48,441 bases of DNA from Candidatus Thermoplasmatota archaeon (GTDB lineage: Archaea > Thermoplasmatota > SW-10-69-26 > JACQPN01 > JAIVGT01), in NCBI GenBank assembly GCA_035541015.1, contig DATLFM010000110.1, positions 1-48,441 of the forward strand, given 5' to 3'. The notes under the pieces are model-generated. The model ran no database searches. It worked only from the letters and a program-made list of their open reading frames with translations, and was not told where the DNA came from. Below, in pieces: positions 9,462 through 21,877 of this stretch. Within the stretch, counting starts at the first letter, position 1. Each line of letters begins with the position of its first letter. The translations under genes and the position numbers were made by a program.

Positions 9462-10745
9462 GTGGACTGGGAGCTCACGACCGCGTTCAACGTAGCCGGC
9501 GGCGTCGCGGTGATCGCCTTTGGCCTGTTCGTGGCTTCCGTGCGGCCCCGGACGGAGCAGGCGACGGCCGTCGCAGCATTCCTGTTTGCTTTTGGTGCCG
9601 CCGTTTCCTGCATCAACTTGGCCGTCGTCGCGGGCCCCGCGTCGCCGCTTGTCCTGGCATTGTCGTGGGCTGCCGCGGGATTCTCGGTTGCGCAGATTGC
9701 AGCAACGGCCTTCGTGCTGAGGGTCGTCCCGGCCCGGCTTGCGCCCGGCGAGCGCGTGCTTCTCTTGATTCCCGTCGTTACCGTTGCGGCAATGGCCTGG
9801 GCGGGCCGTGGCGTTTTGACGGACGAGTCACCCACCATCGCAGCGCTTGGCCCGGGCGTACCGTTCTACCTTTTCTTCGCATGGATCAGCCTGGGCCTGT
9901 GGTATGGGTTGCTGCTTGTGATGGCGGCGCGCGTCGCCCGCCGCGCGGCGGCTCCGGCGATCCTCGAACGAACGCCGCTGCTTGCCGCCGCGCTCACGTT
10001 CTATCCGTTCAGCAGCACCGGCCGAGCCTTCTCCACGGATCCGGTGATCCGTGGGGCGTCGGAGCTTTTCGTCGTGTTTGCAGTCGTGGTCGCGCTCGCG
10101 TGGCTTTGGTCGTGGCATCGCGCGGGCAGACCGAGAGTCGGGAGAAACCTCGCGTGGCTTGGGCTTGGAATCGCCGTGGCGGGGCTTCTGGAAGGCGCGC
10201 TTGCGGGGGCGGAGTTCGGCAGCGGGATCGGCCTCAACGGCATCGCGCGCCTGCTCACGGTTGCCGTCCTGTCGTACGCGGTCGTCCGGCACCAGCTCCT
10301 GGGCATCGACGTGAAAGTCCGTTGGGGCATCAGCAAGACGACCGTCGCCGCGATCTTCATCACGGTGTTCTTCGTCATCAGCGAAGCGGCGCAAGTGGTT
10401 TTTTCGACCGAGGACAACGAGTACTTCGGCATCGCCGCGGCGGCCCTTCTCGTCTTTGCGATTGCGCCGCTCATGCAGTTTGCCGACCGGGTGGCGCACG
10501 CGGCGGTTCCGGTCGGCTCGCCGACAACGGCCACGCCGGCTGGAACTCCCGCGTCCCGTCGGCAGGACGTCTATCGCGCGGCGGTGCGGTATGCGATCCG
10601 CGAGGGGAGGGTGACGAGGGCCGAGGAGCGCCACTTGGCCGATCTTGCGGCCGAGCTTGGCATCGACGCGTCGACGGCGCTGTCCCTCCGCGAGACCGTC
10701 GAAAAGGAAGCGTCGCAAGCGTCGACGGAGGCGCGTTGGGCGTGA
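9462..10745 (+). CDS. Polytopic membrane sensor-like protein, paralogue 1
   Basis: A 427-residue protein with about 10 hydrophobic helices and a short cytoplasmic tail. Around residues 270-290 the phrase YAVVRHQLLGIDVKVRWGIS resembles the end of the 7TM sensor region of some histidine kinases (YAI-R-RL-DID). Two more helices follow, including VFFVISEAAQVVF and GIAAAALLVFAIAPL. The tail, about residues 365-425, is a helical domain (YRAAVRYAIREGRVTRAEERHLADLAAELGID) that I liken to short TerB-like or EF-hand-like modules. There is no kinase domain. Three full paralogues lie in the window. Function is unknown; sensing is inferred from the resemblance only. Confidence 0.75.
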   Translation: MDWELTTAFNVAGGVAVIAFGLFVASVRPRTEQATAVAAFLFAFGAAVSCINLAVVAGPASPLVLALSWAAAGFSVAQIAATAFVLRVVPARLAPGERVLLLIPVVTVAAMAWAGRGVLTDESPTIAALGPGVPFYLFFAWISLGLWYGLLLVMAARVARRAAAPAILERTPLLAAALTFYPFSSTGRAFSTDPVIRGASELFVVFAVVVALAWLWSWHRAGRPRVGRNLAWLGLGIAVAGLLEGALAGAEFGSGIGLNGIARLLTVAVLSYAVVRHQLLGIDVKVRWGISKTTVAAIFITVFFVISEAAQVVFSTEDNEYFGIAAAALLVFAIAPLMQFADRVAHAAVPVGSPTTATPAGTPASRRQDVYRAAVRYAIREGRVTRAEERHLADLAAELGIDASTALSLRETVEKEASQASTEARWA

Positions 10746-10857
10746 TCGTGATCGCGACGGCGCTCGACGCGTGGCCTGGTACGCTTCGACGACGTTCGAC
10801 GAGGTGAGCGGCGTTGCGCAGCAAGACCCGCTCGCCCCGCCGATCCGGCGGACGCGC

Positions 10858-10867
10858 GCTTTAAGCC
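10858..10867 (+). promoter_or_regulatory. TATA-like box before membrane paralogue 2
   Basis: GCTTTAAGCC is centred about 30 bp before TTG 10892. It is nearly the same as the box before the paralogue at 20624 (GTTTAAGCC at 20414). The 146-bp gap between paralogues 1 and 2 holds nothing else I can identify. Confidence 0.45.
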
Positions 10868-10891
10868 TTCACGCGTCGTCAGTTCCGCTCG

Positions 10892-12193
10892 TTGGTCGAG
10901 ATCGCCACCGACGCGGGGAGCATCCTCAACGCGGCAAGCGGCGCGCTTCTTGTTGCCTTGGGCGTCTTCGTCGCATCCGTCAAGCCGCGCGCTTCCGGCA
11001 ACGTCGCCTTTGCGGCGTTTGCGGTGACCTTCGGGACCGGCGTGCTGCTTTTGAACGTCTTCTTGCAAGAGATCCTCCAAGGGACCGCAGCGGGAACGCT
11101 TGTGGCGTGGGTGAGCTTGGGGTCCATCGTCGCAAGCGCGGGGTTTGCGGCGCGGGTCGCCACCCGTTTTCCCCATCCCCTTGCCCCGGGGGACCGGCCG
11201 GCGCTTGCGTTGGCCTTGGCCATCGGGGTGCTCTACGTGGCGGTCGCCTCGTTTCTTGCCGTTCCGGCCGTGACGGCTCTTGCCCCGCGGAACCCGATCG
11301 TCGGCTCGGTCGCCCATTACGCCGCGGCCGTGTTGGCGTACGTCGCGGTCACCGGCGCGCTCACCTTCCTGCTCGTGATGTCGGCACTCCGTTACCGTCG
11401 CGAGAGCGACCCCGTCGCCCGCCGACAGTTCTTGCTGATGTCCGCCGCGCTCGTTCCGTACGTGGGCTTTGTCGCGGGAGCCGGCACGACCGACGGCTCG
11501 CCCACGTTCGTTGGACCGCCGGAGCTGGTCGCGACGGCCGCCGTTTCGATCGCGATCGTCACGGTTCTGGCCGCACTTTGGCTCCGCAACGCGAACGAGG
11601 GTCCCGAGGCGGCGGCGTGCAGGAACCTCGCGCTTCTCGCGCTGGGCGCGGCCCTTGCCGGATTGCTGTGGGCACGGCTGGACGGGCCGACCGGCCCGCG
11701 CGGCTTCCTGCGGACCCTTGGCGTTCTCGTCTTCGCCTACGCGATCTTGCGGATGCAGCTGCTTGGCATCGACGTGAAGGTCCGCTGGGGCATCAGCCGC
11801 GGGACGATCGCGGCCGCCTTCATCGCGGTCTTCTTCGTCGCAAGCGAAGCGGCGCAGGTCGTCTTCGGCGGGGAAGAGAACCCGTACGTCGGGATCGCGG
11901 CCGCGGGCCTGCTCGTGTTCGCGATCGCGCCCTTGCAGCGCGCGGCGGACCGGCTCGCACAGGCGGCGGTTCCAGGCGACGATTTGCGGAGGGCCGCGGG
12001 GAAGGAGGACGCGTTCCGCACCGCAGCCCGGTTCGCGCTTCGTGACCATCGTCTCTCGACCGAGGAGGAGCTTGCGCTTGCGCACTTGTCCGACGAGCTT
12101 GGGCTCTCGCACCGTCGGGCGCTTGAGCTGCGAAACGAAGTGGAGGCGGACCTTGCCGCCAAGCGGCCGACGGCCGGGAGGAGTCGGTCTTGA
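10892..12193 (+). CDS. Polytopic membrane sensor-like protein, paralogue 2
   Basis: A 433-residue relative of the protein at 9462, with the same plan: about 8 divergent N-terminal helices, the phrase YAILRMQLLGIDVKVRWGIS near residue 280, two conserved helices and a tail domain (DAFRTAARFALRDHRLSTEEELALAHLSDELGLS). TTG 10892 fits the upstream box and gives an N-terminus (ILNAASGALLVALGVFVAS) aligned with the paralogues. Its 3' half shares a 116-bp identical run with paralogue 3 (11843-11958 against 13159-13274) while the 5' halves are very different, a mosaic pattern. The stop overlaps the next start (TTGA), so paralogues 2 and 3 are co-translated. Confidence 0.75.
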   Translation: MVEIATDAGSILNAASGALLVALGVFVASVKPRASGNVAFAAFAVTFGTGVLLLNVFLQEILQGTAAGTLVAWVSLGSIVASAGFAARVATRFPHPLAPGDRPALALALAIGVLYVAVASFLAVPAVTALAPRNPIVGSVAHYAAAVLAYVAVTGALTFLLVMSALRYRRESDPVARRQFLLMSAALVPYVGFVAGAGTTDGSPTFVGPPELVATAAVSIAIVTVLAALWLRNANEGPEAAACRNLALLALGAALAGLLWARLDGPTGPRGFLRTLGVLVFAYAILRMQLLGIDVKVRWGISRGTIAAAFIAVFFVASEAAQVVFGGEENPYVGIAAAGLLVFAIAPLQRAADRLAQAAVPGDDLRRAAGKEDAFRTAARFALRDHRLSTEEELALAHLSDELGLSHRRALELRNEVEADLAAKRPTAGRSRS

Positions 12194-13491
12194 CGCCGGA
12201 TCTTTCGCAGGCCGCCCTGTTCAACGTCGCAGGCGCCCTCCTGCTGGCAGCCGTGGGGGTCTTCGTGGGCTCGATCCGTCCGCGGACGCTCGTGAACCGG
12301 CGGTTCGCGCTCTTTGCGATCGGCCTTGGTCTGGCCCTCGCCTGCAACAGCCTCGTCGTGCGGGACCTCACCCTCCTGACGAGCCCCTTGGCCGTCGTGC
12401 TCCTGGCTGCCGGCGCTCCGTTGTTTGTCCTGTCGGCCGTTGGAATCGTCGGGCTGGCGGCATTGTTCCCAAGGCCGTTGAGCTCCTCCGAACGACGGCT
12501 TGCCCTCCTAGCTGTCCTTCCAGCCTTGTGGGTCGTCCTCGTGCCAAACCTTCCGGCCTATCTCCACTGGGAGATCGCAAGCGGCCTGTACGTGGACGGT
12601 CAGCTCGTCTCGGTCTGGACGGCCGCGCCCACGCTCGCTGCAGCCTTGTTCCTGGGCGGCCAAGCAGCAGGCGTGGCCTTGGCCGCTTTCTGGTACTGCA
12701 CGTTTCTCTTCGCGCTTCGGTACCACCGCGAGCCGCGGCAGGAGTATTACCTCCTCAGCGCAGCCCTCATTCTCCTGATCGCATACGTCGTCGGGGTCGA
12801 GATCCTTCGCGCCTGGCGCCACACGGGCCCACTTCCTTTCTTCACGCCGGCGGTGTTCGTGGGGTTCTTGCCACCGACGCTTGCGTTGTCGGCCTTGTGG
12901 CTTCGCAACGTGCGGATCTCCCCCCGCCCCGCCGCCGCGCGGACGGTCGCATGGCTGCCGCTTGCCGTGGCCCTGGCCGCGATGGCGCAGATCCTGGTGG
13001 AGCCCCGCTCCTTGCACGGCCTTGCCCGCTTCGCGAGCGTCCTGCTCCTCGCCTACGCCATCGTTCGCCACCAGCTCCTTGGCATCGACGTGAAGGTGCG
13101 CTGGACCATCAGCCGCGGGACGATCGCCGCCGCCTTCATCGCGGTCTTCTTCGTCGTGAGCGAAGCGGCGCAGGTCGTCTTCGGCGGGGAAGAGAACCCG
13201 TACGTCGGGATCGCGGCCGCGGGCCTGCTCGTGTTCGCGATCGCGCCCTTGCAGCGCGCGGCGGACCGGCTCGCGCAGGCGGCCGTGCCCGCCAGCGGTT
13301 CTGCCGTTCCGCCCTCCGACCGCGAGGAAACCTACCGCGCGGCCGTGCGCATGGCGCTTCGCGGCGGCATCTCACGCGACGAGGAGCGGACGTTGGCGCG
13401 GCTTGCGCGCGACCTTGGCATCGACGCGCACCGGGCGTTTGAGATCCGCGAGGAAACTGAGCGGACGGACTCGCGCGCGCCTCTGGCTTGA
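12190..13491 (+). CDS. Polytopic membrane sensor-like protein, paralogue 3
   Basis: A 433-residue member of the same family. TTG 12190 overlaps the stop of paralogue 2. The N-terminal helices differ from those of the others, but residues from about 286 (YAIVRHQLLGIDVKVRWTIS) through GEENPYVGIAAAGLLVFAIAPL are nearly identical to paralogue 2. The tail domain reads ETYRAAVRMALRGGISRDEERTLARLARDLGID. The family shows variable, presumably outward or ligand-facing helices joined to a fixed output half. No catalytic residues are evident. Confidence 0.75.
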   Translation: MTPDLSQAALFNVAGALLLAAVGVFVGSIRPRTLVNRRFALFAIGLGLALACNSLVVRDLTLLTSPLAVVLLAAGAPLFVLSAVGIVGLAALFPRPLSSSERRLALLAVLPALWVVLVPNLPAYLHWEIASGLYVDGQLVSVWTAAPTLAAALFLGGQAAGVALAAFWYCTFLFALRYHREPRQEYYLLSAALILLIAYVVGVEILRAWRHTGPLPFFTPAVFVGFLPPTLALSALWLRNVRISPRPAAARTVAWLPLAVALAAMAQILVEPRSLHGLARFASVLLLAYAIVRHQLLGIDVKVRWTISRGTIAAAFIAVFFVVSEAAQVVFGGEENPYVGIAAAGLLVFAIAPLQRAADRLAQAAVPASGSAVPPSDREETYRAAVRMALRGGISRDEERTLARLARDLGIDAHRAFEIREETERTDSRAPLA

Positions 13492-14556: not shown

Positions 14557-15663
14557 TCAAAGGTAGCCGCGCATCTTGTCGAAGAAGCCGCGGCCCGTCG
14601 TGGGCTTCCCGGTTTGGCCCGAAAGCTCGCGCACGGCTTCCCGCTCTTTGGCCGAGAGCTTGCGCGGGATCTCCACCTCCACGCGGACGATCTGGTCCCC
14701 GCGGCGGCCGCCGCGCACCTCGGGCATGCCGTGGCCCGGCAACCGGAAGAGAGTGTGGCTCTGCGTGCCCGGCGGGATGGGAAGCTTCTCCTCCCCCTCC
14801 AGCGTTGGCACCTCGATCGTTCCCCCGAGGATGGCCGTCGCGAGGTCGATCCGCGTGACGCAGAAGAGGTTTGCGCCCTCGCGCTCAAAGACGGCATGCG
14901 GGCGGACGCCCACGAGAACGAAGAGATCGCCGGGAGGCGCGCCGGGCTCGCCCTCCTCACCGGCGCCCGCGACGCGGAGATGGTGGCCGTCCTCGATGCC
15001 AGGCGGGATGCGGACGCGCAGCGATTCCTCCGCTCGCACGCGGCCCTGACCGCGACAGTCGCGGCAGGCTTGGCGCGAGAATCGGCCGCGCCCCCCGCAT
15101 TCGGCGCACGGCTGGATGGACACGAACTGCCCAAACGCCGTGCGCTGAGCCTGGCGGACCTGCCCCGCGCCGCCGCAGGCGCGGCAGGTCTCGATGCTGC
15201 CGGGCGTGGCGCCCGTGCCCTCGCAGGTCGCGCAGCCGCGGGCGTGGACCACGAGGACAGGCTTCTCCGTCCCCTGGAACGACTCCTCGAGGTCGATCTC
15301 GACCTCGGCGCGCAGATCCAGGCCCTGGCGCGGGCCCCGCCGGCCGAAGGCTTCGAAGAGATCCCCCAGCCCAAAGTCGCGGAAGAGGTCGTTGAGGTTG
15401 ATGTCAAAGCCGCGGAAGCCGGCGACGTCCTCGGGCGCAAACGCGCCGTGCCCGTGACGGTCGTACTGGGCGCGCCGCTGCGGGTCGGAAAGGACCTGGA
15501 ACGCCTCGTTGATCTCCTTGAAGCGCGCCTCGGCTTCCGGGTTGCCGGGGTTCACGTCGGGGTGCCACTTGCGGGCAAGCTGGCGGAAGGCTTTCTTGAT
15601 CGCATCCGGCGTGGCGTCGCGGTCAAGGCCGAGGACCTCGTAGTAGTCGCGCTTGTCCGCCAT
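14557..15663 (-). CDS. dnaJ: Chaperone DnaJ (type I Hsp40)
   Basis: A 368-residue co-chaperone. The J domain (1-70) has the HPD motif at 34-36 that triggers DnaK ATPase. A short G/F region follows, then the zinc domain with four C-x-x-C modules (CATCEGTG, CRACGGAG, CAECGGRG, CRDCRGQG), then the two C-terminal substrate-binding beta domains. It starts 14 bp after the dnaK stop, the last gene of grpE-dnaK-dnaJ. It delivers unfolded clients to DnaK. Confidence 0.96.
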   Translation of the reverse strand: MADKRDYYEVLGLDRDATPDAIKKAFRQLARKWHPDVNPGNPEAEARFKEINEAFQVLSDPQRRAQYDRHGHGAFAPEDVAGFRGFDINLNDLFRDFGLGDLFEAFGRRGPRQGLDLRAEVEIDLEESFQGTEKPVLVVHARGCATCEGTGATPGSIETCRACGGAGQVRQAQRTAFGQFVSIQPCAECGGRGRFSRQACRDCRGQGRVRAEESLRVRIPPGIEDGHHLRVAGAGEEGEPGAPPGDLFVLVGVRPHAVFEREGANLFCVTRIDLATAILGGTIEVPTLEGEEKLPIPPGTQSHTLFRLPGHGMPEVRGGRRGDQIVRVEVEIPRKLSAKEREAVRELSGQTGKPTTGRGFFDKMRGYL

Positions 15664-15677
15664 GGCCCCGCCGATTC

Positions 15678-17564
15678 CTACGGCTCCCGCTTGGCGTCCG
15701 TGTCAACGACGTTTTCCGGCTTCTCGTTCGCATCTCGCACGTGAACGCGGTGGCCCTCACCGGAGCCGTCCGCTCGGGCGTCCGGCCCGCCGGTGGCCTG
15801 CGCGGCCGCGCTTGCGGCGCTGCCGTACACCGCCTGCCCCACGCCGGCAAGCGCCTTCTCGAGCCGATCCTTGGCAGCGCGAACCTTGGCGACGTCTTGG
15901 CTTGCAAGGGCGGACTTCACGTCTTGGGCTGCCGATTCGACGGCGGTGAGCACCTCCTTGGGTACCTTGCTTGCGTGCTCGGCGATCGCCTTCTCGGCGG
16001 CGTAGACGAGCGCGTCCGCCTCGTTGCGAAGCTCGATCTCCTGCCGCCGGCGCTTGTCCTCCTCCTCGTGCTCCTTTGCCTCGCGCACCATGCGCTGGAC
16101 GTCGGCGTCAGCGAGCTTGGTCGAGGCCGTCACGGTCATCTTCTGCTCCTTGCCCGTGCCGAGGTCCTTTGCGGAGACGTGGAGGATACCCGAGGCGTCG
16201 ATGTCGAAGGTGACCTCGATCTGCGGGACGCCGCGCGGCGCCGGCGGGATGCCGACGAGGTTGAACTGGCCCAGGCTCACGTTGTCCTTGGCCATGGGCC
16301 GCTCGCCCTGGAGCACGTGCACGGTCACGGCCGTCTGGAGGTCGGAGGCGGTGGAGAAGATCTGGCTCTTCTTCGTGGGGATGGTGGTGTTCCTCTCGAT
16401 GAGGGGTGTGAGGACCTTGCCGAGGGTTTCGATGCCCAGTGTAAGCGGCGTCACGTCGAGCAGCACGAGATCCTTTACGTCTCCGGCCAGGATGCCGCCT
16501 TGGATCGCAGCGCCCAGCGCCACGCATTCCATCGGGTCCACCCCGCGCGCGACCTTCGTGCCGACGCGCTCTTCGAGGAACTTGTGCACGACGGGCATGC
16601 GCGTGGGGCCGCCCACGAGCACGATGCGGTCGATGTCGCCCCTCGTTAGCTTGGCGTCGGCGAGCGCCTGCTCGACGGGGTGGATGCAGCGCGCGACGAT
16701 GGGCGCCACGATCTGCTCGAGCTTCGCGCGCGTGAGGCGGAGCTGCAGGTGCTTGGGCCCGGAGGCGTCCGCCGTCACGTAGGGGAGGTTGATGTCGGTC
16801 TCGAGCACCGTGGAGAGCTCGATCTTGGCCTTCTCGGCGGCCTCGCGCACCCGCTGCATGGCCATGGCGTCCTTGCGAAGGTCCACCCCCTGCTCGCGGC
16901 GGAACTCGGAGACGATCCAGTCGACAAGGGCAGCGTCCATGTCCGTGCCGCCAAGCTGCGTGTCGCCGGAGGTGGACAGCACGTTGAACGTGCCCTCGCC
17001 CATTTCCATGATCGTCACGTCGAGCGTGCCGCCGCCAAGGTCGAACACGAGAATCTTGTGGTCGCCCTCCTTGTCGAGGCCGTAGGCCATTGCGGCGGCC
17101 GTGGGTTCGTTCACGAGGCGCACGACCTCGAGGCCCGCGATGCGTCCGGCGTCCTTGGTCGCCGTGCGCTGGTTGTCGTTGAAGTATGCGGGAACCGTGA
17201 TGACGGCCTTTGTCACGGGCTCGCCGAGGAACGCCTCGGCGTCGCGCTTGATCTTTTGCAGGAGAAAGGCTGAGATCTGCTGGGGCGTGTACTCCTTGCC
17301 GTGCAGGCGGAAGGCGTGGCTCGTTCCCATCTTGCGCTTGGCGGCAAGCACCGTGCCCTCGGGGTTCGAGACGGTCTGGCGGCGGGCCGGCTCGCCGACG
17401 AGCAGCTGCCCGTCCCGGGTGAAGGCCACGACGGAGGGGAACATCTTGCCGGCCACCGTGGCGCCTTCGGCCGACGGGACGATGGTGGGCTTGCCGCCCA
17501 TCATGACGGCGGCTTGGCTGTTGGACGTTCCAAGGTCGATGCCGAGGATCTTCTCACGCGTCAT
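15678..17564 (-). CDS. dnaK: Chaperone DnaK (Hsp70)
   Basis: A 628-residue Hsp70. The N-terminal ATPase carries [10 protein letters not shown], phosphate-2 segment DLGGGTLDV and adenosine motif VGGPTRMP. The linker [15 protein letters not shown] leads to the substrate-binding beta domain ([30 protein letters not shown]) and a helical lid. I chose ATG 17564 because GGTGAT, a good match to the archaeal anti-Shine-Dalgarno, stands 4 bases before it; an upstream GTG at 17573 is less likely. It overlaps the grpE 3' end by 11 bp. In archaea the DnaK system is usually considered acquired from bacteria. Confidence 0.96.
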
Positions 17565-18099
17565 GGGAATCACCTTCTGGAGTGGCAGTCGGGGGAGAAG
17601 CGGCGATCCGGACCTGCGAAGGACGGATCACGCGGTCGCCCACCGCGTAGCCCTTCACGATCTCGGAGAGGACCGTGCCTTCGGGCTTGTCGGAGCTCTC
17701 GCGCGCCACGGCCTCGTGCAGGAACGGGTCGAAGGGCTTGCCGACGGGATCGAGCGCCCGAAGCCCCCGCGCCTGCAGAACGGAGAGGAGGTTGCCGTGC
17801 AGGAGGGAAAGCCCGCGACGCTCGTCACCGTCGGGGAGCGTCGCGAGCGCGCGGTCGAAGTCGTCGAGGACGGGAAGGAGGTCGCGCGCAAACGACTCGA
17901 CCGCGCGACGCTCGACCTCGGCGCGCTCGCGGGCGAAGCTCTTGCGAAGGTTCTCAAGGTCGGCCTGGAGATACCGAAGCTGCGAGAGCCGGTCCTGCGC
18001 GAGCTGCTGCGCTTTGGCAAGCTCGGCTTGGAGACGGTCGGCCTCCTCCGAAGGGGCGGACGATCGCTCCGTCGCAACCGGCGGCGTCTCGCTCGACAA
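17554..18099 (-). CDS. grpE: Nucleotide exchange factor GrpE
   Basis: About 181 residues. A long N-terminal helix or coiled coil ([19 protein letters not shown] then [18 protein letters not shown]) is followed by the DnaK-binding beta domain, with the family phrase LHEAVAR and [23 protein letters not shown] near the C-terminus. No ATG or GTG is in frame at the right place; TTG 18099 gives the acidic N-terminus [13 protein letters not shown] and is my choice. GrpE releases ADP from DnaK. The gene leads grpE-dnaK-dnaJ and lies just downstream of a strong inverted repeat. Confidence 0.9.
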
Positions 18100-18112
18100 A
18101 GGGCTCCCCGAA

Positions 18113-18154
18113 GGCCGACAAAAAAAGCGGTTCCATATGAACCTTTTGTCGGGC
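18113..18154. promoter_or_regulatory. Long interrupted inverted repeat at the grpE promoter
   Basis: On the minus strand the arm GGCCCGACAAAAGGTTC is followed by ATATG and then GAACC, three or more extra bases, TTTTTTTGTCGGCC. The two arms pair over both the GGTTC/GAACC core and the outer GACAAAA/TTTTGTC part. It lies between the M14 peptidase stop (18168) and the grpE start (18099). With its run of seven T it could end M14 transcription; as a palindrome over the grpE promoter it could be a heat-shock operator. I cannot decide. Confidence 0.55.
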
Positions 18155-18167
18155 CCGCTCGGAAGCC

Positions 18168-20276
18168 CTAGGTGCGACGCCGGCGCGCCGCAACCGCCAA
18201 GGCGCCAACTGCGGCAAGCAGGATTACCGGCTCCAACCCCGGCACGCTGGCCGGCTCCTCGCCTCCGGTCGGGTTGAGCACGCCGTCGAGGAGCCCGCGC
18301 GGCTCCTGGCTTTCGACAAGCGTGAAGCCAAGCGCGTTGTAGAGCACCTGGTAGCCCGTGGCGGTTACGGCGTAGCTTGCAAGGCCGTAGGGTGGATCGT
18401 GCTCTGTCGTAGGCGGAGCCAAGAGGGCGCCGAGGAAGACGATCTCGCCCTTGCCAAGAGGAAGCGTTCCGAGGCTCGCGGCGCTTGTGGAGCCCGAGGT
18501 TCCGGCCACGGCGCCGCCGGCCGATTCGACGGCCGTGGCGGCGATCGTCCAGATGGGCGCCGAGCCGCGAAGGTCGTAGCCGATTGTGATGCCGCTGTAG
18601 AGCTCGCGGGCCAGCCCGCGCACGCCCTTTGCAAGAGCGTGGTCGCCAACGATGTTCGCATAGCCGAGGTAGCCTGTGGTTTCCTTGACCTCGTCGGCGG
18701 CGACGGCACCCAACGCGTGCGCAAGCGCGAGCGCGCCGTCCGTCACGACAAGGCGCCCGCCGGCCTCGACCCACGCCTTCATCGCAGAGACGGCGGCGGC
18801 GTTGGAAAGGAGCGATTCTGCGGCGCGGCCGCCGACGGCAAAGCGGTCGAAGTCCGATAGGCGGCCGGCGGCGACGTCGGTTGCCGAGAGACCCGCGACC
18901 GGGCCGTCGACCACGTTTGCCATGTCGGCCCAGAACTCGTTGAGATCCGCGCGGACCTTGCGTTCGAAGACGGCGGCCGAGTCCGCGAGCCCCTCGGGGG
19001 CCGCGCCCACGTCCGTGGCAAGCGGGTCGACGAGGTAGGCGAGCTTGTGCCCGTTTGCCTGCACGAGCGCGAAGATTTTCTGCTGCGCCGTCTCCACGTA
19101 GGAGCGCACGATCTCGCGCACCGTGTGTACGTGCATGTCGTTCAGGATGGCGACGTAGTTGTCGTCGAACGTGATGTGGTTGTACGCAAGCTCGAAGTCG
19201 AAGCCCTCGGCCTCGACGAACTGCGCGAAGAACTCGCCCGTCGTTCCCGAGTCCGTGTAGCCGATCGTGTCCCAGGTCGTGCCGTACTCGTTGAAGTTGC
19301 CGCCGGCCAGGCCCACGTTGGGAAGCGACGAGAACCACGGGTAGCGCTCGCTTGCCATCGCGTTTAGCCGTTCCTTCACGTTCTCGGCAAGGCGGACGTT
19401 GCGGAGGTGGCCCGTGGGCGTCTCCTGCGCCGAGGGGATAAGCGAGAGGACGAAGTGGCCCTCGCGAAGGCACGTGCCGCCCAAGAACGGCGACGTGCGC
19501 GGCAGGCATTGGATGGGCTTTCCGTACCCGGCGAACAGGATCCCGCTGTCGGCCGGGTGCAGCATGCCGTGGATGTCCGTCGCGTACATCGCGCGGCCCT
19601 TGAACTGGAGGTAGTAGGGCGCAAGGCCTGCGATCTCCGGCTCGGAGAGGGCCGGGCCGCGGCCGCCTCCCGATTGGTACCACCCCATCGAGGGGAAGTC
19701 GCGGTTCAAGTCGCGGCCGTTGCCGTTGCCGCGCGTGTAGCCCGTGTTGACGGGGTCGCCCAGGCGGTGCTCGAGCTCCTCGTGCGCCCACCCGTCCACG
19801 TTCGGGAACGTGAAGACGAGCAGGAACTGATCGAGGATCGCCGCGCGGAAGGCCTCGTCGTAGTAGTGGCCGGCCGCGAGATCCTCGATCACGCGCATGC
19901 CGCCCTCGCGTCCGCCCTTCTCGTTGCCGTGGATCGAGAGCTGGAAGATGAGGACGGGCTTCTCGTCGCGCGGCGTCGCGCTCTTGTCGTTTGTAACCTC
20001 GACCGCGACGATGGGATATTGCGCGCGACCACCCGTGGCCGTCGGGATGCCAAAGCTGCTGCCGACCTCCCTGACGACCAGAACGTCGGGGTGGGCCTTG
20101 GCAAGCTTGTCGATTCCGGCGTAGAACTCGCGGATGCCCACGAAGTCGGTCGTCTCAAGCGGCTCCGGGAAGACGCGCGAGCTTGCGCTTGCGCTTGGAA
20201 GCGGCCCCGCCTGGGAGAGCGGCACCATCGACAGGGCGATCGCGGCCGATACGGCGAGGGCAAGGACGCGCCTCAT
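18168..20276 (-). CDS. Secreted M14-family zinc carboxypeptidase with C-terminal membrane anchor
   Basis: A 702-residue exported protein. ATG 20276 gives a clean signal peptide (RRVLALAVSAAIALSMVPLSQA); a TTG 12 bases upstream is less likely. The M14 domain shows zinc ligands His116 and Glu119 (HGNE) and His236 (DIHG), plus NRDFP at 191-195. A central 300 residues look like a glutamine-amidotransferase-type or other Rossmann-like module (RLVVTDGALALAHALG), not certain. The C-terminus VPGLEPVILLAAVGALAVAARRRR resembles PGF-CTERM tails processed by archaeosortase. It trims peptides at the cell surface. Confidence 0.87.
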   Translation of the reverse strand: MRRVLALAVSAAIALSMVPLSQAGPLPSASASSRVFPEPLETTDFVGIREFYAGIDKLAKAHPDVLVVREVGSSFGIPTATGGRAQYPIVAVEVTNDKSATPRDEKPVLIFQLSIHGNEKGGREGGMRVIEDLAAGHYYDEAFRAAILDQFLLVFTFPNVDGWAHEELEHRLGDPVNTGYTRGNGNGRDLNRDFPSMGWYQSGGGRGPALSEPEIAGLAPYYLQFKGRAMYATDIHGMLHPADSGILFAGYGKPIQCLPRTSPFLGGTCLREGHFVLSLIPSAQETPTGHLRNVRLAENVKERLNAMASERYPWFSSLPNVGLAGGNFNEYGTTWDTIGYTDSGTTGEFFAQFVEAEGFDFELAYNHITFDDNYVAILNDMHVHTVREIVRSYVETAQQKIFALVQANGHKLAYLVDPLATDVGAAPEGLADSAAVFERKVRADLNEFWADMANVVDGPVAGLSATDVAAGRLSDFDRFAVGGRAAESLLSNAAAVSAMKAWVEAGGRLVVTDGALALAHALGAVAADEVKETTGYLGYANIVGDHALAKGVRGLARELYSGITIGYDLRGSAPIWTIAATAVESAGGAVAGTSGSTSAASLGTLPLGKGEIVFLGALLAPPTTEHDPPYGLASYAVTATGYQVLYNALGFTLVESQEPRGLLDGVLNPTGGEEPASVPGLEPVILLAAVGALAVAARRRRT

Positions 20277-20413
20277 GAGAAGCCTCAAGTCCGCCGACTC
20301 TGGACGATGCTATTTCAGGTTTGTGGTGGGCCTGTTGGTCAAGAGCGCCTCGCCCAACGCTTGCGCGGCCGCCCCCAAGACGCACCGGGCCCGTCCGTGC
20401 ATGCCTCGGAGCA

Positions 20414-20444: not shown

Positions 20445-20627
20445 GTGCTGCCCGTCTTCGACGTCTTGTCGCCCGAGACGCTCAACGTGGCAAGCGGCCT
20501 CCTCGCGGCCTCGCATCTTGCGCTCACGGGGCGTGCCAAGCGGCTTGGCACCGGCGCCCGCCGGAACATGGAGATGCGCCGCGAGGTGAAGCGTGACGAG
20601 CCTGGGGCGCCGGAGGCGACGCCGTGA
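20445..20627 (+). CDS. Truncated relative of the membrane sensor-like family (one helix)
   Basis: About 60 residues from GTG 20445 (66 from GTG 20427). The stretch ETLNVASGLLAASHLALTGRAKR aligns with the first helix of paralogue 2 (SILNAASGALLVALGVFVAS-KPR). After this helix the sequence turns basic and hydrophilic (GARRNMEMRREVKRDE). The stop overlaps the next start as GTGA, so it is coupled to the full paralogue at 20624. It may be a decayed gene end or a retained small subunit; the intact coupling slightly favours expression. Confidence 0.5.
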   Translation: MLPVFDVLSPETLNVASGLLAASHLALTGRAKRLGTGARRNMEMRREVKRDEPGAPEATP

Positions 20628-21877
20628 GCCTCAACCTTGGCGCGGGCGCGCTTGCAAGCGTCGCGGGGGCCCTTCTCATGGTCGGGCTGGGCCTTGCGGT
20701 CCTCCGGGTCCGGCCGCGCCGTCGGGAGAACGTGGCCTTCGCGGCCTTTGCCATGGCCTTTGGCGGCGGGTTCGTGCCGGTCAACCTGTTCACGCCCGAC
20801 GATCCGGTGATGGCCCATGCAGCCATGCTCGCCGCGCTGCTGTTCACCGCGGCAGCGGTTGCGCTTGCGTTCCTGGGCCGCTTGTTCCCCGTGCCGTTGG
20901 CCGTCGGCGAGTGGAAACTTGCTGTCCCAGCCGCCGCCGTGGGCGCCGCCGCGGCCGTGCGCGTGCCCCTTGTTGCGCTTCCTTCGCTGGACCCCGCCCT
21001 GCACGGTCTTCCGTTTGTCCTGGGCATCGTCGCGCTTGGGATCAGCCACGGCGCCGGGCTTGCGTTCCTGCTGTTCCTCGGGCTCCGCTTCCCGCGGTAC
21101 GCGTCGGATCCGCGAATCGCAAGTCAGTTCGCCCTGGCAAGCGCCGGGATCGGTATCCTGCCGGCCTTTGCGCTTGGTTCCTCCCTGCGGCAGATCACGA
21201 CGGTCGAGACTGCGCCCACGGACCCGATGCTCGCAGCTGCGGGATTTGGCATCCTCTTGCTGCTTGCGGGCATGTGGCTTTGGAATGCAGCCGTTGCCGC
21301 CCGGCCGGCGGCGGCCCGAAACGTCGCTTGGTTTCTTCTCGTCGTGGCGCTTCTCGGACTTGTCTCGGCCTCCTTCAATCTCGTGGGCGCGGCCGGCGTC
21401 GCGCGAATGGCAACGGTGGCGCTTCTGGCCTACGCCATCCTGCGCCATCAGCTCCTTGGCATCGACGTCACGCTTCGTTGGGGGCTTGGCAAGACCACAG
21501 CGGCGGCCATCTTCATCACCGTCTTTTTCCTCGTGAGCGAGGCCGCGCAGGTTCTCTTTCGCGAGGAGGGCAACGAATACTTCGGCATCCTGGCGGCGGG
21601 GCTCCTCGTCTTCGCGATCGCGCCGCTCATGCAATTTGCGGATCGGGTCGCGCAGGCGGCCGTGCCGATCGGAGCCGCCGATCCGCGGCCCTCGCGCGAG
21701 GAGGCCTACCGTCGCGCGGTGCGCCTTGCGCTGCGAGGCGGGATCACGCGCGAGGAGGAGCTTTCCCTTGCGATGCTCGCGCGCGAGCTTGGCATCGACG
21801 CGCACCGGGCGCTCACGCTCCGCCACGAGGTGGAGGAAGCCCGATCGGGCGCAACGCATGAGAAGGCGGTGGCGTGA
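20624..21877 (+). CDS. Polytopic membrane sensor-like protein, paralogue 4
   Basis: A 417-residue member of the family at 9462-13491, about 7 kb away from the others. It has around 10 hydrophobic helices, the phrase YAILRHQLLGIDVTLRWGLG near residue 268, VFFLVSEAAQVLFREEGNEYFGI, and a tail domain (EEAYRRAVRLALRGGITREEELSLAMLARELGID). The 5' half is again unlike the other paralogues. GTG 20624 and the 3' end (GTGA at 21874) overlap flanking small genes, giving a three-gene operon. Function unknown. Confidence 0.75.
   Translation: MSLNLGAGALASVAGALLMVGLGLAVLRVRPRRRENVAFAAFAMAFGGGFVPVNLFTPDDPVMAHAAMLAALLFTAAAVALAFLGRLFPVPLAVGEWKLAVPAAAVGAAAAVRVPLVALPSLDPALHGLPFVLGIVALGISHGAGLAFLLFLGLRFPRYASDPRIASQFALASAGIGILPAFALGSSLRQITTVETAPTDPMLAAAGFGILLLLAGMWLWNAAVAARPAAARNVAWFLLVVALLGLVSASFNLVGAAGVARMATVALLAYAILRHQLLGIDVTLRWGLGKTTAAAIFITVFFLVSEAAQVLFREEGNEYFGILAAGLLVFAIAPLMQFADRVAQAAVPIGAADPRPSREEAYRRAVRLALRGGITREEELSLAMLARELGIDAHRALTLRHEVEEARSGATHEKAVA

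Follow-up and report, generated by a model that had tools for sequence, protein, structure and literature searches.

The analyzed window, a 48,441-nt stretch of a contig from Candidatus Thermoplasmatota archaeon, encodes four paralogous membrane proteins that are related to transmembrane Ser/Thr kinases and carry no kinase domain. As judged from sequence comparison, this kinase-less form is a stable subfamily on a branch of its own and not a set of broken kinases, and its nearest catalytic kin are Hanks-type Ser/Thr kinases, not histidine kinases. A plausible explanation, to which we give an even chance, is that these proteins are stand-alone membrane receptors that signal by docking of their tails to each other or to a partner.

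Three of the genes, A, B, and C, are adjacent, and gene D is a dispersed paralogue:

9462..10745, plus strand: gene A, kinase-less receptor-like protein, 427 aa, GTG start (open frame, alignment, hydropathy)
10892..12193, plus strand: gene B, kinase-less receptor-like protein, 433 aa, TTG start (open frame, alignment)
12190..13491, plus strand: gene C, kinase-less receptor-like protein, 433 aa, TTG start (open frame, alignment, AlphaFold model)
20624..21877, plus strand: gene D, dispersed paralogue, 417 aa, GTG start (open frame, alignment)

The initial annotation had described three adjacent paralogues and a fourth at 20624. This layout is confirmed, as the three frames span 9462-13491 exactly, D occupies 20624-21877, and all four proteins are alignable over their full length. 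The start of C overlaps the stop of B by 4 nt (12190-12193), and GGAGG is found upstream of the C start.

The neighbours in the window are housekeeping genes for an aconitase family protein, a metallophosphoesterase, DnaJ, DnaK, GrpE, an M14 carboxypeptidase, a hexapeptide protein, and a GCV_T/CAF17-like protein. The M14 carboxypeptidase (18168-20288) looks secreted; its C-terminus has a hydrophobic stretch and is basic at the end, resembling a sorting signal. The dnaJ-dnaK-grpE cluster (14557-18216, minus strand) is located between the array and gene D; a chaperone link was considered and rejected, because these neighbours are not conserved across loci. A survey of gene neighbours had been proposed together with the annotation. 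The all-against-all comparison of neighbours across the receptor loci revealed no conserved partner gene; its output consisted chiefly of frames lying antisense to the receptors, together with small, scattered clusters. No RNA families or tRNAs were found within the window, and no plasmid-borne relatives were found.

The membrane part is larger than the annotated 7TM region. Gene C encodes 11 membrane segments by hydropathy, and its AlphaFold model has 11 long helices followed by three short tail helices, the full-length model being of middling confidence (mean pLDDT 70.5, pTM 0.64, core pLDDT about 40-57). Both analyses give about 9+2 helices ahead of the tail; in the shorter relatives, about 380 residues long, the count is 7+2. 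The distribution of charges suggests that the N-terminus is outside and the tail inside. When the first helices were compared with GPCR/rhodopsin-like 7TM structures, many receptors were tied (Z 7.1-8.6, rmsd about 5 A), and Foldseek produced no match for these helices with E <= 0.001; given ties at Z 7-8.6, we make no claim of a GPCR-like fold. Neither a ligand-binding residue nor a partner gene could be picked out.

Many helices would also be expected of transporters, lipid enzymes, or structural membrane proteins using the tail as a scaffold, and many divergent copies may suit substrate-specific carriers as well. We consider such functions improbable. No known transporter or enzyme family was matched by A-D in Pfam or NCBIfam above cut-off, nor by fold, and hence the profile match to a known enzyme or transporter that could have explained the whole sequence, named in the initial annotation as an argument against receptors, was searched for and not found. 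Moreover, the region of homology corresponds to the kinase input half, and relatives of A-D match HisKA_7TM.

The relation to kinases is seen in the sensor halves, which align between window-type and kinase-bearing proteins with hhalign probability 98.8 and E 1.2e-16 over 185 columns. Each of the seven class genomes has PF00069 kinases, and the core and tail profile matches 16 kinase-bearing proteins ahead of the kinase domain. Contig 12 of the source genome contains two such paralogues in tandem (L042:484-5238), each with a Hanks-type PF00069 domain after the tail and with intact lysine, HRD, and DFG motifs. The multi-TM Hanks-type Ser/Thr kinases of this archaeal class thus have in common with A-D the sensor half, the two-helix core, and the juxtamembrane three-helix unit, in the same order; they differ in having the kinase domain, which A-D lack, and in forming a separate branch.

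A resemblance to the 7TM sensor regions of histidine kinases, suggested by the initial annotation, holds through relatives, whereas A-D themselves have no direct match to HisKA_7TM (PF16927). The kinase-less paralogue on contig 70 of the source genome scores 33.6 bits against PF16927, with a cut-off of 28.6, and HisKA_7TM matches 5 of 12 short-form kinase-less relatives (best 5.2e-11). The fronts of the long and short forms align with hhalign E 5e-7 over 107 columns only; hence the HisKA_7TM kinship of A-D is indirect, via the kinases and these relatives. HisKA_7TM sensors precede archaeal histidine kinases (PMC5847659, PMC6944256), and A-D are probably sensors of the same broad kind. Compared with HisKA_7TM, they add two helices and the tail and are without HisKA or HATPase_c; the 11 HATPase_c matches in the source genome are all on other contigs.

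In the tree built from core and tail, a single branch (SH-aLRT 89) separates 85 kinase-less proteins from 16 kinase-bearing ones, with modest inner support and several long rows. The sister proteins have a kinase directly after a like tail, as might be expected if the kinase-less proteins were decayed kinases that recently lost the catalytic domain and are on the way out. This scenario is very hard to sustain, since a single branch parts all kinase-less proteins from the kinase-bearing ones, and the frames are open, expanded, and spread across several families of the phylum. In addition, most family frames stop 3-17 residues past the tail; A-D, having no kinase domain, end 10-15 residues past it.

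Copy numbers were obtained by a profile search scoring a limited number of candidates per genome. Among the candidates scored, the source genome contains 10 family members, two of them with a kinase: four in the window, two each on contigs 95 and 12, and single members on contigs 98 and 70. One of the contig-95 members is a further close long-form copy. Three genomes contain about 8, 22, and 16 kinase-less copies among the candidates scored, often in head-to-tail arrays. The core-tail profile matches 66 of 243 sampled genomes of the phylum at E <= 1e-5, many of them through the tail alone.

Several further occurrences were observed. A contig binned as Gemmatimonadetes bacterium SS_bin_81 encodes a full kinase-less homologue (L077:5548-6702), and no other strong match was obtained in 80 genomes of that order; it may stem from transfer or mis-binning. 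Two Gemmatimonadota membrane proteins (L213:1468-2715, L214:478-1818) have the two-helix core and neither tail nor kinase. The contig of the nearest named relative, from the same family and filed under the name Halobacteriales archaeon MAG107, is the exact reverse complement of contig 276 of genome G001.

The joint presence of both forms raises the possibility of co-receptors, in which kinase-less proteins would pair with kinase-bearing paralogues via tail and core and tune one Ser/Thr kinase output. Sensor, core, and tail are common to both forms, the source genome has two such kinases with intact motifs, and no tail-bearing protein from outside the family was found in it at E <= 1e-5 (16 of 46 candidates scored). 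We nevertheless regard this explanation as doubtful. The two forms are on separate branches. In genome G003 (97% complete), there are 16 kinase-less copies, and no multi-TM kinase was found; nine more genomes of the phylum that have kinase-less copies yield no more than a single weak kinase match apiece, the frames being about 224-318 aa long. Nor do the copy numbers of the two forms rise together, the opposed relation being a trend only (Spearman -0.78, permutation p 0.052, 7 genomes, kinship uncorrected). Thus, G003, the nine genomes, and the opposed copy numbers argue against an obligatory kinase partnership, although a partnership may exist where both forms occur.

The most conserved part of the stand-alone receptors that we propose is a short membrane core. 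It starts with the phrase YAI-RHQLLGIDVKVRW, where the last sensor helix ends, includes the next two membrane helices, and finishes near the AVP motif:

10257..10520, plus strand: fixed core of A (end of the last sensor helix and two TM helices)
11720..11983, plus strand: fixed core of B (end of the last sensor helix and two TM helices)
13036..13299, plus strand: fixed core of C (end of the last sensor helix and two TM helices)
21413..21676, plus strand: fixed core of D (end of the last sensor helix and two TM helices)
11843..11958, plus strand: 116-nt tract of B identical to C (gene conversion)
13159..13274, plus strand: 116-nt tract of C identical to B (gene conversion)

Among A-D and the contig-95 paralogue, identity is 27-36% in the front, 67-90% in the 88-residue core, and 34-60% in the tail. 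The phrase, reported as conserved, is found with small changes in all four proteins A-D, and the N-terminal helices are as strongly different as had been described. The nearly fixed C-terminal half of the initial annotation, however, shrinks to the membrane core alone, since the tail diverges.

The A-D genes look like mosaics in these comparisons. B and C agree at 38 of 49 four-fold degenerate sites in the core (78%), at 25 of 68 in the front (37%), and at 8 of 14 in the tail. Bootstrap resampling always (100%) pairs B with C in the core; for C, it gives D as the nearest sequence in the tail (87%) and either D (69%) or the contig-95 copy (27%) in the front. The sameness of the B and C cores is partly due to gene conversion. 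The same pattern was observed for one pair in an array of Euryarchaeota archaeon 0813_bin23 (synonymous agreement 29/41 vs 21/74), and most pairs in genome G003 have excess synonymous identity of the core, which was absent from the other paralogue pairs tested. Synonymous identity is not raised by protein selection alone; therefore, the pairs with an excess are most simply explained by recent gene conversion of the core. In the pairs without it, the core is kept alike through protein selection.

The tails occupy the following positions:

10521..10742, plus strand: tail of A, linker and three-helix TerB/ENT-like unit
11984..12190, plus strand: tail of B
13300..13488, plus strand: tail of C, three-helix unit, pLDDT 89 folded alone
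21677..21874, plus strand: tail of D

Modelled separately with ten homologues as input, the tail is a confident three-helix unit (pLDDT 89), in agreement with the helical tail of the initial annotation. The best overlay is with ENT domains (5zx1, 1uz3, 2fmm; Z 7.5-8.8, 63-64 residues), followed by the C-terminal half of the TerB structure 2ou3 (Z 7.1, 2.1 A, 64 residues); by the warning of the tool itself, Z values in this range possibly mean a mere common helical arrangement. Of the two checks proposed for the tail, structure prediction thus yielded a TerB/ENT-like overlay, whereas the profile search gave no match of A-D to TerB (PF05099) at the curated cut-off. Among relatives, 9 of 57 match PF05099 at E <= 0.01 (best 3.6e-5). 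The core-and-tail profile matches 4bm5, a Tic110-like helical repeat, with E 8.7e-11 via the tail, and 2ou3 at 0.26.

Each of these similarities is partial. The complete TerB fold (PF05099; 2ou3) has both halves, and the tail is one three-helix unit overlaying the C-terminal half. The Tic110 helical repeat (PF16940; 4bm5) forms a long array, and the tail is a single unit. The ENT domains of EMSY and T. brucei have 12-13% sequence identity with the tail, which belongs to membrane-anchored archaeal proteins. Matches to PADLOC PDC-S48 were rejected as indicating a defence system, being weak and confined to the tail.

Related units are found in other proteins of the phylum, either as three consecutive copies following a winged-helix domain or combined with HEAT repeats or zinc ribbons. 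Winged-helix proteins with three tail units (L072:3720-4811, L073:4285-5325, L074:4323-5462) are widespread in the phylum. Such a protein was considered as a universal partner and rejected, since it was not found in the source genome and gave only weak matches, in 2 of 7 class genomes. A HEAT-repeat-like protein of genome G043 (L068:4633-7137) has one tail unit, and the region after this unit is presumably a DUF835 domain. A lone half-unit that occurs in multiple copies elsewhere suggests docking or pairing, and the divergence of the tails among paralogues makes them ill suited to one common partner.

The idea of receptors with diverse inputs and one shared output, put forward in the initial annotation, is retained in part. 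A receptor-like family with a variable front, no kinase, and a partner elsewhere agrees with the data, whereas the supposed output, the tail, diverges, and the shared part is the transmembrane coupling module. From the computed kinship with kinases, domain order, branch separation, and gene conversion, we infer sensing, passage of the signal via the helix pair, and docking by the tail. The variable bundle of about 7-9 TM helices would sense a signal outside or within the membrane, and the fixed helix pair would carry the change to the cytosol. There, the single three-helix TerB/ENT-type unit may dock to the tail of a second receptor or to a cytosolic or kinase partner. The kinase-less branch would have its own output, while its sister proteins have sensor, coupler, and tail directly before an intact Hanks-type kinase.

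In archaea, membrane signalling is chiefly known in the form of two-component systems. A bolder and rather unlikely extension of the stand-alone receptor scenario is an enzyme-free archaeal receptor system with dozens of many-helix sensors per genome, apart from both two-component systems and Ser/Thr kinases. Its members would pair only via the lone half-TerB/ENT unit, and gene conversion would keep the coupling helices alike so that fronts and tails vary and recombine freely. Restriction of gene conversion to the coupling helices illustrates how an array of this type may vary its inputs and tails while the transmission part stays common to all.

In summary, the family provides a stable receptor-like branch, with up to about 22 copies per genome, that has its input half in common with transmembrane Ser/Thr kinases and no enzyme. 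It offers a concrete case for studying how an archaeal receptor may signal without a kinase, and its kinase-bearing sisters would allow a direct sensor-swap test.
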